Below, piece by piece: positions 22,230 to 60,432 of a stretch of 64,000 bases of DNA. The notes under the pieces were generated by a model, which ran no database searches, was not told the DNA's origin, and saw only the letters and a program-made list of their open reading frames with translations. The stretch's first letter is position 1, and each line of letters begins with the position of its first letter. The position numbers were made by a program, and so were the translations under genes. This DNA comes from Couchioplanes caeruleus (GTDB taxonomy: Bacteria; Actinomycetota; Actinomycetes; Mycobacteriales; Micromonosporaceae): positions 5,456,001-5,520,000 of the forward strand of contig NZ_RJKL01000001.1 of NCBI RefSeq assembly GCF_003751945.1. Reading direction: 5' to 3'.

Positions 22230-22329
22230 CGGCTGACAGTGCGACCGGAGGCCGCCGGGTGGACGCGAGTCCGCCCGGCGGCCTCGCCGTCTCACCGCTC
22301 GCAGAAGTTCCTCCAGCCTTGCCGCGGAT

Positions 22330-22372
22330 TTGACGGCGGCTTGAGTCCCGGTTGAGGGAGCGGGCCGAACTA
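22330..22372 (+). promoter_or_regulatory. Triple 11-bp TTGAG-type box with GCCGAACT (TasA-like gene)
   Basis: Half-sites TTGAC, TTGAG and TTGAG start at 22330, 22341 and 22352, exactly 11 bases apart. Six bases after the last TTGAGG comes GCCGAACTA (22364-22372). The ATG is 54 bases downstream. The same layout occurs before two other genes (55900-55940 and 59949-59991). Direct repeats of one helical turn are typical of OmpR/PhoB-type regulator sites; the regulator is unknown. Confidence 0.6.
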
Positions 22373-22425
22373 CTCCTCTGACAGCGAGAGATGGCCGGTG
22401 CGCCGGTCGGTGAGAGGAACACAAG

Positions 22426-22995
22426 ATGCAGTTCCGCGGAACGAAGATGCTGGCGGTGGCGCTCACGGTGACCGGCGGAATCGCGATCAGCTCCGGCGTC
22501 ATGTGGCAGGCCTCCAGCGCGGCTTTCACGGCGAACACCGGCAACAGCGCGAACACCTGGAATGCGGGTACGGTCGAACTCAGCGACGACGACAACGGCT
22601 CGGCGATGTTCTCGCCCACCAACCTGCGGCCCGGTTCGACCGGCGAGAAGTGCATCAACGTCTCGTACACCGGCAGCCTCGCGGCCACGGTGAAGCTGTA
22701 CGGCACCGCCGTCTCCGGCGATCTCGCCCCGCACATCGACCTGGTGATCGAGGAGGGCAGCGGCGGCGGCTACGGCACCTGCACCGGCTTCACCCCGTCG
22801 GGCACCGCCTACACCGGCACGCTGGAAAACTTCGGCGCCACCAAGAACAACTTCGCGAACGGCGTCGGCACGTTCGCCCCGGCATCGGCCGACAACAAGA
22901 CCTACCACATCACGTACACGTTGAACGCGTCCACGCCGGACATCAAGCAGGGTACCTCCGCGGCGGCGACCTTCACGTGGGAAGCGGCGAGCTGA
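22426..22995 (+). CDS. TasA/camelysin-like secreted protein (SipW-type substrate)
   Basis: A 189-residue protein with a SipW-cognate type signal: MQFRGTKMLAVALTVTGGIA, then SSAAFTANTGNSANTWNAGT at the cleavage region and first strand. The body is a beta-sandwich of the TasA/CalY kind (FSPTNLRPGSTGEKCINVSY, a two-Cys domain). In Bacillus such proteins form biofilm fibres after cleavage by SipW. Its gene is followed two bases later by a SipW-like peptidase, which strengthens the call. Upstream is the triple TTGAG box. Whether it forms fibres here is inference. Confidence 0.82.
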   Translation: MQFRGTKMLAVALTVTGGIAISSGVMWQASSAAFTANTGNSANTWNAGTVELSDDDNGSAMFSPTNLRPGSTGEKCINVSYTGSLAATVKLYGTAVSGDLAPHIDLVIEEGSGGGYGTCTGFTPSGTAYTGTLENFGATKNNFANGVGTFAPASADNKTYHITYTLNASTPDIKQGTSAAATFTWEAAS

Positions 22996-22997
22996 CC

Positions 22998-23603
22998 ATG
23001 ACCACCCTGTCCGCACCGGCCGGATGGGCCGGAACCCACCAGCCGGCCGGACGCCGCCGGTCGAGCGGACGCCGCACCGTCCCGCCGGGCCTGCCGTCGC
23101 TGCTGCTCCGGTTCGTCGCCATCGCCATCCTGGCGGCCGTGGGCGCGCTCGTGGCGTGGAGCTCGGTGCCGGCGATCTGGGGCTGGACCCCGGTCGCGGT
23201 CGTCAGCGAGTCGATGAGCCCGTCCCTGCACCGCGGTGACGTCGCCGTCACCTCGGCCCCGCCGGAGAACTGGACGCCGATCGTCGGCCAGGTCGTGGTC
23301 GTTCCCGACCCCCAGCACCCGGGCCAGACCCGCATCCACCGCATCTCCGGCATCGACGAGAACGGCCTGCTGATCACCCGCGGCGACGCCAACGGCAGCG
23401 ACGACAGCTTCCGTACGGCACCCGACCAGGTCAAAGGCATCGGTCGCCTGCTGATCCCCGGGGTCGCCCTGGCGACGCTGGACATGCGGGAGGGCGACCC
23501 CGCGATGTTCGTGGCCCAGACGGTCGCCGTGCTCGGCGCGGTCGCCCTCGTTCTGCGACCGGCCCGCCGGGCGACGCCCGACGGACTTGACGGCTCGCGG
23601 TAA
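22998..23603 (+). CDS. SipW-like signal peptidase I (ER type)
   Basis: A 201-residue membrane peptidase. After a first membrane segment (FVAIAILAAVGALVAW) comes the nucleophile Ser72 in VVSESMSPSLHRGD. The general base is His114 (QTRIHRISG) rather than Lys, the mark of SipW/ER-type enzymes, and the late GDANGSDD motif is present. A second membrane segment (MFVAQTVAVLGAVALVL) is near the C-terminus. It should cleave the TasA-like precursor encoded two bases upstream. Two membrane-anchored beta-sandwich proteins at 25593 and 27485 might be further clients, but they lack a clear cleavage site. Confidence 0.88.
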   Translation: MTTLSAPAGWAGTHQPAGRRRSSGRRTVPPGLPSLLLRFVAIAILAAVGALVAWSSVPAIWGWTPVAVVSESMSPSLHRGDVAVTSAPPENWTPIVGQVVVVPDPQHPGQTRIHRISGIDENGLLITRGDANGSDDSFRTAPDQVKGIGRLLIPGVALATLDMREGDPAMFVAQTVAVLGAVALVLRPARRATPDGLDGSR

Positions 23604-48282: not shown

Positions 48283-49427
48283 CGGTACGCATCGGCATCG
48301 ACGGACGGGTGCTCACCGACCGCTATCACGGGATCGGGCGGGTCACCCACGAGCTGATCCTCGCGATGTCGGCGACCTCCGGCGTGGAGCTGGTCGTCTT
48401 CACCGGCGATACCGGCGGGGAAGGTGCCTGCCGTCGTTTCGACCTGGACCTGCTGGCGATGCTGCCGGGCGTCGAGGTCGTGCCGGTGCGGCTGAAGGCG
48501 GTGGACGTGCGGCAGCTCTGGCGTTGGCGCCCGCTGCTGCGCGGCGCGATGGTCGACGTGATGGTCTTCCCGTACCACCTCGGAGCCGCGCCGCTGCTCG
48601 GCCGGCCGGCGGTCGCGCTGGTGCATGACTGCATCCTCGAGACCGACCCGACGTTCGCCCCCTCGTCGCGGGTCGGGCTCGCCTACCGGATGATGACCGC
48701 GCTCGTCGCCCGCACCTCGACGATCGCGACGGTCAGCCATGCATCCGCGCGGGAGGTGGAGCGGTTCTACGGCCGCCGGGTCCATCCCGGCCACGTCATC
48801 GGCAACGGGGTCGACCAGCGGCTGCGGGACGACCCGTTCGCGGCCCGGCGCCTGGAACTCGAGTTCGGCCTGGAGCCCGGGTACGTGCTGCACGTCGGCG
48901 CCCAGCGCCCGCACAAGAACGCCGCCGTCCTCGTCGAGGCGATCGCGCGGGTGCCGGACGCGCGGCTCGTGCTGGTCGGCTCGGCCGACGAACGCTTCGC
49001 CGACGAGGTCGGGCCGGCGATCGACCGGTACGGGGTGGCCGGCCGCGTCACCCGGCTGCCGTTCGTGCCGGAGGAGCTGCTCGGGACGTTGTACGCGCGA
49101 GCGCGGCTGCTCGCGTACCCGTCGCTGGTCGAGGGTTTCGGGTTGCCTGTGCTGGAGGCCATGGTCGCTCGCACGCCGGTGATCGCGAGCGACGTGCCGG
49201 TCCTGCGCGAGGTCGGCGGCTCGGCGGCGCTGTACGTGGCGCCGAGATGCGCCGAGGCGTGGGCGGCCGCGATCACCCGGCTGCTCGCCGACGATGATCT
49301 GCGCGACGGCCTGGTGGCCGCCGGTGCCGCCCACGCCTCGCACTTCACGTGGGATGCCGCTGCCGCGCGGCTGGTCTCAGCGTGTCATTCCCTCACCGGC
49401 ACCTACCTGGCCGACGCGGCGAGGTAA
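48279..49427 (+). CDS. GT4-family glycosyltransferase
   Basis: A 382-residue GT-B enzyme: VRIGIDGRVLTDRYHGIGRV at the acceptor side, then LHVGAQRPHKNAAVLVEAIA and YPSLVEGFGLPVLEAMVART with the E-x7-E donor motif. The opening GIDGR...GIGRV pattern resembles mannosyltransferases of the WbaZ/MtfB type. The GTG at 48279 overlaps the flippase stop. Its last 25 bases overlap the end of the convergent glycosidase-like gene at 49403. Confidence 0.87.
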   Translation: MTVRIGIDGRVLTDRYHGIGRVTHELILAMSATSGVELVVFTGDTGGEGACRRFDLDLLAMLPGVEVVPVRLKAVDVRQLWRWRPLLRGAMVDVMVFPYHLGAAPLLGRPAVALVHDCILETDPTFAPSSRVGLAYRMMTALVARTSTIATVSHASAREVERFYGRRVHPGHVIGNGVDQRLRDDPFAARRLELEFGLEPGYVLHVGAQRPHKNAAVLVEAIARVPDARLVLVGSADERFADEVGPAIDRYGVAGRVTRLPFVPEELLGTLYARARLLAYPSLVEGFGLPVLEAMVARTPVIASDVPVLREVGGSAALYVAPRCAEAWAAAITRLLADDDLRDGLVAAGAAHASHFTWDAAAARLVSACHSLTGTYLADAAR

Positions 49428-55147: not shown

Positions 55148-55891
55148 TTACAGCAGGGGCTCGATGTGGCGTCGGGGCAGCGGGCCCGGCTTGGCGATGT
55201 AGTAGCCCTGGCCGTGGCGTACGCCCAGTTCCAGCAACTGGGCGTGCTCCGCGTACGTCTCGATGCCCTCGGCGACCAGCATGGCGCCGATGCTCTCGGC
55301 GAAGGTGACCAGCGCGCGGGCGAGGGCGATCCGGACCGGGTCCTGGTCGATGCCGCGGGTCAGCGAGATGTCGAGCTTGATGACGTCGGGCTGGATCTGC
55401 AGGATCTGGCTCAGGTTGGCGAAGCCGGCGCCGGCGTCGTCCACCGCGATCAAAATCCCGGCCGCCCGGAGCAGGTCCATGACCTCGCGCAGCGCCGTGT
55501 AGTCGGTGACCTGGGTGTGCTCGGTCAGCTCCACCGCGATGCGGCGGTGCGCGTGCGCCAGCAGCATGGTGATGGTCCGCGGCGTCAGCAGCGCCTCCAC
55601 CGACGCGTTCAGGCTGAGCCACACGCCGTCCGGCACGTCGCCGAGGCGCAGCAGGGACCGCTCGATCGCCAGGATCTCCAGCTCCACCCCCAGACCGGCC
55701 GCGTCCGCGGCGGCGAACGCCTCCGCCGGGTTCGCGAAGTGCCGGCGGTCGAACCGGGCCAGCGCCTCGTAGCCGTTGACCATCCCGTCTTCCAGCTGCA
55801 CGATCGGCTGGAAGGCGGTCTCGACCGCGCTGCGGTAGAGCACTTCGCGAACGGCCCGGTTGGCGGGCGAGGGGAGCTGCGCGACGGTCAT
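55148..55891 (-). CDS. EAL-domain c-di-GMP phosphodiesterase
   Basis: A 247-residue stand-alone EAL domain. Key motifs are kept: GYEALARF, SLNASVEALL (metal Asn), VELTEHTQV (Glu), VDDAGAGFANL (Asp pair, with Ala for the usual Phe), IKLD (Lys) and VAEGIET (Glu). It should hydrolyse c-di-GMP to pGpG in the cytoplasm. The ATG has no ribosome-binding site and lies nine bases after the promoter element GCCGACT, so the mRNA is probably leaderless. Its promoter shares the triple TTGAG layout with the TasA-like and mini-GT2 genes. It converges with the GAF/PAS kinase gene. Confidence 0.88.
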   Translation of the reverse strand: MTVAQLPSPANRAVREVLYRSAVETAFQPIVQLEDGMVNGYEALARFDRRHFANPAEAFAAADAAGLGVELEILAIERSLLRLGDVPDGVWLSLNASVEALLTPRTITMLLAHAHRRIAVELTEHTQVTDYTALREVMDLLRAAGILIAVDDAGAGFANLSQILQIQPDVIKLDISLTRGIDQDPVRIALARALVTFAESIGAMLVAEGIETYAEHAQLLELGVRHGQGYYIAKPGPLPRRHIEPLL

Positions 55892-55899
55892 GCCGCATC

Positions 55900-55940
55900 A
55901 GTCGGCAGCGGCCCTCAACGCAATCTCAAGCCGCCGTCAG
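55900..55940 (-). promoter_or_regulatory. Triple 11-bp TTGAG-type box with GCCGACT (EAL gene)
   Basis: Read leftward: CTGAC, TTGAG and TTGAG start at 55940, 55929 and 55918, 11 bases apart. Six bases after the last TTGAGG comes GCCGACT (55906-55900). The EAL ATG (55891) follows at once. The first half-site overlaps the stop of the EAL-HDOD gene. The spacing is identical to the boxes at 22330 and 59949. Confidence 0.6.
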
Positions 55941-57214
55941 CGAAAGGCAAAGCTTCGGGTGAGTTCCTCGTGGCGGGTGTCGTCGTGCGTGGCGGCGACG
56001 GTCTGGGCCGACCAGCGCATCGCGTCCATGACGGCGCCGGTGAGGTCGTTGCCGCCGCGGTTGAAGCCCATCATGACCATGTCGCCGCGCTCGTACGCGT
56101 CGACCACCCGCAGCATCCGGCCGAGCGGGCCGGTGCCGCGGGTCAGGGCCGCGCCGATGTCCGCGGTCAAGGGCAGGTGGCTCACCAGCGATGCCGGGGT
56201 GATGCCGAGGAGCTGGGCGACCGCGGTGATGAGCCCGGCCACGAACGCCGCGTCCGGGTCGGTGTCGAACCGCGCCGCCAGGTTGTGGCACAGCCGGGCC
56301 CGGGTCAGCGCGTTGGTCAGTTGGACCTCGGTCTCCTCGGCCACGTCGTCGACCGTCATGAGCATCGCCCAGCGGCGGATGTGGCCCAGGCCCAGCAGCA
56401 TCACGGCCTGGCGGATCGACGACACCCGGCGGATCGAGCCCACGGCGGCGCTGTTGCTGGCCCGCAGCACCCGCATGGTCAGCGCCGGGTCGCTCGAGAC
56501 GATCTCCACGATCCGGTCGATGTCGACGTCGGCCGCGTCCAGCGCGGCGAGCAGCTCCACCCGGCGCGACTTGAACGGAGGGATGCAGGCGGCGGTCATC
56601 ACCTGAGGGCGGCTGAGCACGTAGCCCTGGCGCAGCTCGATGCCGTACCGGTCGCACAGGGCCAGGTGGTCCAGCGTCTCCAGACCCTCGGCGACGATCT
56701 CGATGCCGGGGAAGCCGCGGAAGAAGGCGAGCTGCTCCTCCAGGCGCTCCGGGTCGCAGCTCGGCAGGTCCAGCTTCACGTACGAGGCCAGCGGCAGCAG
56801 CCGCTCGTGCCCAGATCCCCAGACGAAGTCGTCCAGCGCGATGGGGTAGCCGGCGGCGACGAGGTTCGACACACCCGCCACCACGGCATCGTCGACCTCG
56901 ATCGTCTCGAGCACCTCGAGGACGACGCTCTCCGGGCCGAACGGGAGGATGAGCTCGCCGGTGAGGAACTCGCGCGTCATGTTGATGAAGCACATGCGGT
57001 CGCCGACGATCTCGTCGAGCCCGAACTCGGTGAACGCGTTGACGAGGACGTGGCTCGTCGCGTACGCGTCCCGCCGGTCGGCCTCGACGGCGCTGGTGTT
57101 GCCGCGGAACAGCAGCTCGTAGCCCGCGATGTCACCGTGCGCGTCGAAGATCGGCTGCCGCCCGATGTGCACCTGGCGGGTGCCCGGCTGAGTGAACTCC
57201 TGCCGCTTGTCCAT
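55937..57214 (-). CDS. EAL-HDOD signalling protein (YuxH-like)
   Basis: A 425-residue protein: an EAL-type domain (residues about 15-210) and an HDOD domain (about 215-405). The EAL part keeps GYELLFR, INMTREFL, LEVLETIE, LDDFVWG, VKLD and VAEGLET, but with the divergent form seen in YuxH/CdgJ-type proteins, many of which are inactive phosphodiesterases acting by protein contact. The HDOD part reads IPPFKSRRVELLAALDAADV to LGHIRRWAMLM. In other bacteria such proteins act in motility and c-di-GMP pathways. A FliA-like promoter precedes it. It lies 45 bases before the EAL gene on the same strand. Confidence 0.87.
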   Translation of the reverse strand: MDKRQEFTQPGTRQVHIGRQPIFDAHGDIAGYELLFRGNTSAVEADRRDAYATSHVLVNAFTEFGLDEIVGDRMCFINMTREFLTGELILPFGPESVVLEVLETIEVDDAVVAGVSNLVAAGYPIALDDFVWGSGHERLLPLASYVKLDLPSCDPERLEEQLAFFRGFPGIEIVAEGLETLDHLALCDRYGIELRQGYVLSRPQVMTAACIPPFKSRRVELLAALDAADVDIDRIVEIVSSDPALTMRVLRASNSAAVGSIRRVSSIRQAVMLLGLGHIRRWAMLMTVDDVAEETEVQLTNALTRARLCHNLAARFDTDPDAAFVAGLITAVAQLLGITPASLVSHLPLTADIGAALTRGTGPLGRMLRVVDAYERGDMVMMGFNRGGNDLTGAVMDAMRWSAQTVAATHDDTRHEELTRSFAFR

Positions 57215-59813: not shown

Positions 59814-59948
59814 CGCACCAGTCTTCGCCCGAGCCTTGGCCGGCGTGATCGGCGAAAGAAGCAAAAATATTTAGCCTCTTTCTCGACGACGTGCCGGCCC
59901 TTCGGCTCGTTGTCCATGTCCGAGCCCTTTCCAGGCTTTGCGCGGGTG

Positions 59949-59991
59949 TTGAGCGACGGCTGAGGTTGCATTGAGGTTGCCGGCCGAACTA
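59949..59991 (+). promoter_or_regulatory. Triple 11-bp TTGAG-type box with GCCGAACT (mini-GT2 gene)
   Basis: Half-sites TTGAG, CTGAG and TTGAG start at 59949, 59960 and 59971, each 11 bases apart. Six bases after the last TTGAGG comes GCCGAACTA (59983-59991), and the ATG is at 59998, so the transcript is nearly leaderless. The layout matches the boxes at 22330 and 55900. Confidence 0.6.
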
Positions 59992-59997
59992 TGGGGC

Positions 59998-60432
59998 ATG
60001 ACCTACTCGAACCTCCTCGCCGTTCCGCCCGTGGTCGTCGCCGGACCCGCCCGTGACCTCTCCCCGATGCCGTGGCCGTACCGCGTGGCCGCCGTCGAGC
60101 TCAGCGTCGTCGTTCCCTTCCACCGCACGGGCCCCCGGCTCCAGGAAGCCCTGAAGCGGATCAGCGACGCCCTCAACTCCCAGGGAATCGCCTTCGAGAT
60201 GATCGCCCTGTCCGCCCGTCCCGGCGCCGGATCCTCCCCGGAGCTGGACCGTATGCCCCACACCCGCGTCGTCACCTCGGGCTCGATCGAGGACAAGGGC
60301 GCGGCCCTGCACCTCGGCTTCGCCATGGCCCGCGGCGCCTGGATCTGCTTCGTCGACATCGACGAGGACGCCGAGATCGACGGATACGAGCTGATCGAGC
60401 ACTTCCACCGGGCCCGCGAGAAGAACCTCTGA
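59998..60432 (+). CDS. Short GT2-like protein (half-domain)
   Basis: A 144-residue protein with the opening of a GT2 fold: ELSVVVPFHRTGPRLQEALK, then MIALSARPGAGSSPELDRMP and the metal-like IDEDAEIDGYEL after WICFVD. It ends where the second half of a normal GT2 domain would begin, so it lacks the acceptor side. It may be a regulatory or partner protein. The DxD-like IDED is kept, so nucleotide binding is possible. The ATG at 59998 has no ribosome-binding site; the triple TTGAG box lies just upstream. Confidence 0.7.
   Translation: MTYSNLLAVPPVVVAGPARDLSPMPWPYRVAAVELSVVVPFHRTGPRLQEALKRISDALNSQGIAFEMIALSARPGAGSSPELDRMPHTRVVTSGSIEDKGAALHLGFAMARGAWICFVDIDEDAEIDGYELIEHFHRAREKNL

Follow-up and report, generated by a model that had tools for sequence, protein, structure and literature searches.

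A ladder of four 11-bp repeats probably serves as a response-regulator operator in place of the −35 element, mostly beside a putative flagellar-type −10, in an Actinoplanes-group regulon

Promoters of the pho-box type carry 11-bp direct repeats, the last of which lies close to the −10 element, and they have no −35 element. In Actinoplanes missouriensis, the response regulator TcrA is described, in the passages available, as binding the two-unit box GCA(A/C)CCG-n4-GCA(A/C)CCG and controlling sporangium genes (PMC12691653), and the species has three known FliA-family sigma factors (PMC13293333). WhiG promoters of Rubrobacter (TAAA / GCCGATAA) precede DGC/PDE genes, and Actinoplanes is said to lack RsiG, according to excerpts of one study (PMC8325347); in excerpts of another, a Streptomyces phosphodiesterase is reported to act on the WhiG/RsiG pair (PMC13232838). 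Three further papers give context on Actinoplanes sigma factors and regulators, their passages concerned containing nothing on the box described here (PMC10733313, PMC11064477, PMC11960193), and our literature search found no title or abstract opening describing it.

The promoters analyzed here share with PhoB/pho-box promoters the 11-bp direct repeats, the position of the last repeat near the −10 and the lack of a −35, but differ in their TTGAG core, their four units, a −10 that appears mostly flagellar-type, and their EAL, GT2 and surface-protein targets. Like the TcrA regulon, as far as its partial account goes, they belong to this group of organisms and would pair a response regulator with an operator made of 11-bp direct repeats (PMC12691653). 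With WhiG/FliA promoters, as excerpted, they have in common a GCCGA −10 and c-di-GMP enzymes among the targets (PMC8325347); the −35 is TAAA in WhiG promoters and CT[AC]A in this genome's flagellar promoters, whereas the boxed promoters have no CTNA at the N16 position. Judged from sequence, we consider it likely that the ladder is a regulator's operator that replaces the −35, is combined mostly with a flagellar-type −10 and defines an Actinoplanes-group regulon.

The window, meaning the whole 64,000-nucleotide stretch of Couchioplanes caeruleus DNA analyzed (contig 1, bases 5,456,001–5,520,000), was originally predicted to contain three half-sites spaced 11 bp apart before each of three genes, followed by a TTGAGG-N6-GCCGAACT or GCCGACT tail. 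All three boxes lie exactly where they had been placed, with this spacing and this tail. The three named half-sites hold in each case, but the total of three does not, since a fourth unit upstream had been overlooked and the array comprises four repeats. The sequence of the box with its tail was likewise correct, but GCCGAACT is more plausibly a flagellar-type (FliA/WhiG) −10 than an operator element. The relevant features of the window are:

22319..22357, + strand: ladder of four 11-bp units before the TasA-like gene, from the alignment; units start at 22319, 22330, 22341 and 22352
22364..22370, + strand: GCCGAAC in the sequence, putative flagellar-type −10, with the invariant A at 22368
22426..22995, + strand: TasA-like secreted protein, 189 aa (label of the original prediction), with a leader and an SD-like GAGAGGAA ahead of the ATG
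22977..23603, + strand: ORF downstream of the TasA-like gene, 208 aa, signal-peptidase-like by eye
55148..55891, − strand: EAL-only protein, 247 aa (PF00563, 168 bits), with its ATG at the presumed transcription start
55900..55906, − strand: GCCGACT, putative −10 of the EAL gene, with A at 55902
55913..55952, − strand: ladder of the EAL gene, its units beginning at 55951, 55940, 55929 and 55918 leftward, the first unit being TTTGC
59938..59976, + strand: ladder of the mini-GT2 gene, its units beginning at 59938, 59949, 59960 and 59971
59983..59989, + strand: GCCGAAC, putative −10 of the mini-GT2 gene, with A at 59987
59998..60432, + strand: mini-GT2, 144 aa, matching a GT2 domain in its N-terminal portion (28.5 bits to PF00535, over positions 1–89 of the 168 in the profile)

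Transcription would begin at 55891 for the EAL gene, at 59998 for the mini-GT2 gene and near 22379 for the TasA-like gene. The TasA-like product gave no family match in Pfam and NCBIfam searches at E ≤ 1e-3 and only weak matches to PDB profiles, the best being a nanobody (E 0.011), followed by fibre proteins (E ≥ 0.07). Orthologues of the TasA-like gene also have the ladder ahead of them (L172, L205, L210/L211, L217, L230, L023).

Within the window, YTGAS-N6-YTGA-N7-TTGAG matched exactly at the three sites only. At ≤1 mismatch, four matches were found against 0.02 (sd 0.14) in 100 shuffles, the fourth being the first site shifted by one unit, which bears out the expectation that three equally spaced sites would hardly arise by chance. 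A two-unit version of the box was not above chance in the window (7 found, 11.2 expected at ≤2 mismatches), so the signal resides in the whole array. The proposed scan of the genome (8.43 Mb) for the three-unit pattern plus tail (≤3 mismatches) returned ten sites, against none for the reversed pattern; the rates were not random and the sites did not lie inside genes. The ten sites and the genes that follow them are:

607,022: mini-GT2 gene (L009:7072-7503)
607,613: EAL gene
610,061: GT2 gene
618,223 and 635,373: Fn3 protein genes
5,478,330: TasA-like gene (window 22330)
5,511,940, − strand: EAL gene (window 55940)
5,515,949: mini-GT2 gene (window 59949)
6,498,687, − strand: GT2 gene
7,024,779: gene for a LamG-like secreted protein, so labelled by eye

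Pfam and NCBIfam yielded no match for the LamG-like protein. A different own-genome pattern, run at ≤2 mismatches, gave 31 matches and its reversed control 10, so its matches with two mismatches are largely noise. Weaker candidates in this genome precede a 101-aa protein (G000:C1:48694), a 137-aa ORF (631346, − strand) and a secreted protein (2629056).

In a 60-genome scan (≤2 mismatches), the box occurred in 10 of 36 same-genus genomes, our own included, and in 0 of 24 others, the control giving 0 in each group. Alignment of 35 sites (10 from our genome and 25 from relatives) placed the units CTTGCC, TTGA, YTGAG and TTGAGG at offsets −11, 0, 11 and 22, with GCCGA[AT]C at offset 34, six bases past the last unit. 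The fourth unit, CTTGCC or similar, is marked by a T at offset −11 in 33 of the 35 sites. A position weight matrix tested with one genome left out at a time found 40 matches above 14 bits in 812,540 bases (both strands counted), all intergenic as judged by a home-made codon-usage gene caller, which missed the following gene at L067, L069 and L073. Shifting one unit by a single base (a spacer of N6 and not N7 after unit 1) left 4 matches in 4 of 67 genomes, two of which (G000, G023) overlap real sites; the reversed control left 1. We regard the box and its regulon as real with near certainty.

For the following counts, we used 101 distinct sites found with a four-unit pattern that specified no −10 (105 matches in 23 genomes that carry the candidate regulator described below, identical sequences counted once); this set does not include G012:C12:787259, a site before a TasA-like gene (L023, tail GCCGAAC), or the contig-end site G079:C54. 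Altogether, 88 of the 101 sites precede genes of six classes: GT2 (30), mini-GT2 (26), EAL (15, including one site whose best-scoring frame was wrong (RR)), Fn3 (10, including L221, which is only 28% alike), TasA-like (6) and LamG-like (1). The 13 sites without a target match comprise one contig end, five and two sites before small proteins, and five that are unexplained. The first five small proteins (L233, L235, L237, L238 and L239, in G079 and G029) look similar to one another, with 71–80 aa and a YPTLGR..VD...LGRT-like stretch, and start at the boxed ATG; the other two, of 95–97 aa (L240, L243), resemble the protein behind the own-genome candidate at 48,694. The five unexplained ladder sites (L214, L220, L223, L241, L244) have an xAnnnT-type −10, and four are GGCA- or TGCA-like; possibly they belong to another regulator or arose by chance.

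Several of the targets are paralogous (EAL, mini-GT2, GT2 and Fn3), as would be expected if genes had been duplicated together with their upstream DNA and the shared sequence reflected descent and not function. We consider this explanation very improbable, because the box is common to six gene classes, of which four or more have no sequence relationship, and because conservation is concentrated in the repeat cores and the −10 while spacer letters vary. Moreover, the start codons of the TasA-like and Fn3 genes lie tens of bases farther away, yet the spacing of ladder and −10 is exact, and divergent EAL copies hold the register. When the ladder was scored at a fixed distance from the ATG of 36 distinct EAL-only copies, 32 scored 11–17 of 20, and each of these outscored its own registers shifted by 3–8 bases, which served as the control for a bias toward the ladder introduced by picking the ATG, among in-frame candidates, for the best ladder. 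The remaining four copies (G017, G006, G064, G072) scored 7–8; all lie behind a boxed mini-GT2 gene, and they therefore fit the expectation for an operon. Mini-GT2 itself, of ~144 aa and with a DxD-like stretch, may be an enzyme, a pseudo-enzyme or a regulator. A search of 5.8 billion found 14 relatives at E ≤ 1e-3, of which eight are named: five from Actinoplanes and one each from Couchioplanes, Pseudosporangium and Nucisporomicrobium; on this basis, we take the genus to which the genome counts refer as the Actinoplanes group. As a separate observation, three boxed GT2 genes of 258–259 aa with near-identical upstream regions (L191, L247, L248) are scattered over one chromosome of G029, perhaps a recent expansion.

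The original prediction had tentatively ascribed the box to a single OmpR/PhoB-type regulator encoded outside the window, having observed that no response regulator within it carries a DNA-binding domain. Among 60 called genes of the window (phmmer, E ≤ 1e-3), we found three receiver-domain proteins and no match to an OmpR-type DNA-binding domain. A candidate regulator gene starts at 608,526 on the same chromosome (L009:8527-9234), 100 bp behind a boxed EAL gene. Its product has the receiver and winged-helix domains of RegX3, MtrA and PrrA (PDB 2oqr, 2gwr, 1ys6), with both Response_reg (PF00072, 103 bits) and Trans_reg_C (PF00486, 90.9 bits) above cut-off, and it falls below the cut-off of the best 25 of 100 matched NCBIfam models, led by CreB (214 bits, cut-off 273), MtrA (210, cut-off 300) and PhoB (206, cut-off 296). 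D54, T81 and K103 are invariant in 12 orthologues, as are residues 191–204 of the DNA-binding domain; we take D54 and K103 to be the conserved phospho-acceptor Asp and Lys.

The regulator is present at 80–100% identity in 22 of 67 genus genomes, next-best proteins reaching at most 58%, and in a 23rd (G006), where a run of N interrupts its gene. The box tracks its distribution: at ≤2 mismatches, the tail-free four-unit box occurred in 23 of 23 regulator genomes versus 6 of 44 without the regulator, and a limit of ≤1 mismatch left 22 of the 23 and none of the 44 (Fisher 8.5e-17, calculated as if the genomes were independent of one another, although they are not). The six regulator-free genomes had one match each, all with two mismatches; four fall in the start region of the same unrelated 334–336-aa gene, one inside a gene and one before a 112-aa gene. 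The reversed four-unit control matched once in the 67 genomes. The EAL-only type (best match ≥61% identical to that of the window) is present in exactly the 23 regulator genomes, and 14 of the 44 others have EAL matches of at most 56%, all in longer frames; regulator, EAL gene and box thus constitute one inherited module. In 22 of the 23 genomes, the regulator gene lies 50–171 bp downstream, on the same strand, of an EAL (15) or mini-GT2 (7) gene, these distances being approximate since the home-made caller misses or trims some starts; in the exception, G024, it lies behind an unrelated gene. Because the three components travel together, their co-occurrence could reflect common descent or linkage. 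Outside the genus, searching covered the 24 genomes mentioned above and 80 of at least 594 loci with regulator relatives, the best of which is 56% identical among the matches listed; near these loci, no box above 12 bits was found in 1,828,360 bases on both strands.

Co-occurrence and linkage thus support the predicted regulator outside the window, and the linked OmpR/PhoB-type protein very probably binds the ladder. The alternative that it is a bystander and that TcrA or a SARP-type activator binds instead seems unlikely to us. SARP operators also have 11-bp spacing, and a 1136-aa protein that looks SARP-like by eye lies beside the G018 cluster; no such protein is present in the other regulator clusters listed. 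The box at 59937 resembles the TcrA box on the opposite strand with two mismatches, but none of five boxed sites compared contains the TcrA box, the best match in them having 2–5 mismatches of 14. TcrA, in the part of its description available, acts as a global activator in Actinoplanes and has a box of 11-bp direct repeats (PMC12691653), but it is the linked regulator that the box follows genome by genome.

We then considered the −10 element, using the same 101 sites. GCCGA was exact at offset 34 in 55 and shifted by one base in none; the other tails comprised a one-mismatch class (26), ACCGA (2) and an xAnnnT class (18) at offsets 37–42, in the same register. Many of this last class look housekeeping-like, and it includes CATNCT, CAGAAT and CAGGAT as well as our own mini-GT2 site at 607,022 with GTCGA. 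The sigma factor is therefore not uniform across boxes. All 101 sites have A at offset 38, which the pattern did not demand, and C at 36 and G at 37 occur in 92 and 85 sites, respectively. Because CTNA at the N16 place was found in 0 of 101, these are not ordinary FliA promoters. The first ATG or GTG lies at offset 49 in 42 sites and at 50 in 28. A transcription start at offset 49 would make the invariant A38 the −11 position and messages with an ATG or GTG there leaderless; most boxed enzyme genes thus appear to begin at or beside the transcription start. The TasA-like and Fn3 genes keep the ladder and GCCGA at exact spacing, although their leader is longer and includes an SD-like stretch, which argues that GCCGA is not start-codon context.

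The flagellar promoters of the genome provide a reference. CTCA/GCCGAA is the consensus for Actinoplanes flagellar promoters, of which our literature search found no printed statement, and the own-genome flagellar promoters match it. In ~209 kb of own sequence, CT[AC]A-N16-GCCGA[AC] occurred eight times (reversed −35 control, 2). Five of these matches are intergenic and stand 49–85 bp ahead of a called start, within the flagellar region or next to it; a sixth, at 51 bp, fell inside a gene according to the caller, and two are unrelated. The genome has flagellin genes (four matches, three of them strong). Spacing of N17 also gave eight matches (control, 1), six of them inside genes. Four sigma proteins of this genome fit FliA_WhiG best (176–192 bits against a cut-off of 189.6, one above and three just below), with SigBFG scores of only 80–90 bits; the idea that a true FliA/WhiG sigma is absent was accordingly dropped. 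Seven genomes of other families reach 270–288 bits for FliA_WhiG, which none of 36 genus genomes does. Since both the flagellar promoters and FliA_WhiG-type sigma proteins match, we infer that GCCGA is a flagellar-type −10 and that the ladder replaces the −35; use of a flagellar-type sigma factor at GCCGA boxes is, on balance, somewhat favoured. Alternatively, the regulator could recruit a HrdB-type polymerase to the same regulon, GCCGA being a poor −10 compensated by the activator. The 18 xAnnnT sites in the same register would fit this, as would the universal A38, which corresponds to the −11 A of any sigma-70-type −10, but the specificity of GCCGA goes well beyond that of a decayed TAnnnT (C36 and G37 as counted above) and equals the −10 of the genome's own flagellar promoters. 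We regard recruitment of the housekeeping sigma factor throughout as doubtful.

On the reading we prefer, with a flagellar-type −10 at most boxes, the four repeats would form the operator of the linked response regulator, two dimers of which would occupy adjacent positions from about −60 to −22 and substitute for the −35 contact, in the manner of PhoB-like class II activation. In sequence, the repeats are one turn apart, stand at a fixed distance from the −10 and lack a −35, as in PhoB-like class II promoters. RNA polymerase carrying a FliA/WhiG-family sigma factor would be the partner. The geometry makes activation by the regulator likely, although DNA alone cannot separate an activator from a repressor. 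The module would turn on the standalone EAL protein, by family a predicted c-di-GMP phosphodiesterase, together with secreted proteins and the glycosyltransferase-like GT2 and mini-GT2 proteins, and may thereby affect c-di-GMP; a developmental function is suggested by the kinds of target only. Because its gene lies downstream of a target-class gene, the regulator may amplify itself. In its fullest form, the proposal is that a PhoB-type regulator activates a FliA/WhiG sigma factor at promoters that lost this sigma factor's own −35, through four one-turn repeats, the ladder also serving housekeeping-type −10s; we see this as evenly poised between true and false. On that proposal, with the ladder working at housekeeping-type −10s as well, operator and sigma choice would evolve separately.

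What was a repeat noticed by eye is now a defined regulon open to testing, for which a candidate regulator, the targets and a predicted start base can be named. Should the part on sigma be true, a response regulator would take the place of the −35 toward a flagellar-type sigma factor, and an EAL protein would be tied to late development in Actinoplanes, reportedly without RsiG according to the excerpts (PMC8325347). In zoospore-forming actinomycetes, such a two-key promoter would link the flagellar stage with glycosyltransferases, surface proteins and an enzyme that degrades c-di-GMP.

The regulator's own neighborhood (L009:5902-17999 and L081), much of which recurs in other regulator genomes, holds Fn3 proteins, a GT4, a flippase-like protein and a membrane protein resembling MmpA (187 bits against a cut-off of 210). 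It looks like a surface-glycan cluster, and its make-up resembles the imp sporangium-matrix cluster as partly described (PMC12691653). At ~632–635 kb (L081), this cluster also encodes two kinases, one of them a hybrid histidine kinase with Hpt, which are possible signal sources.
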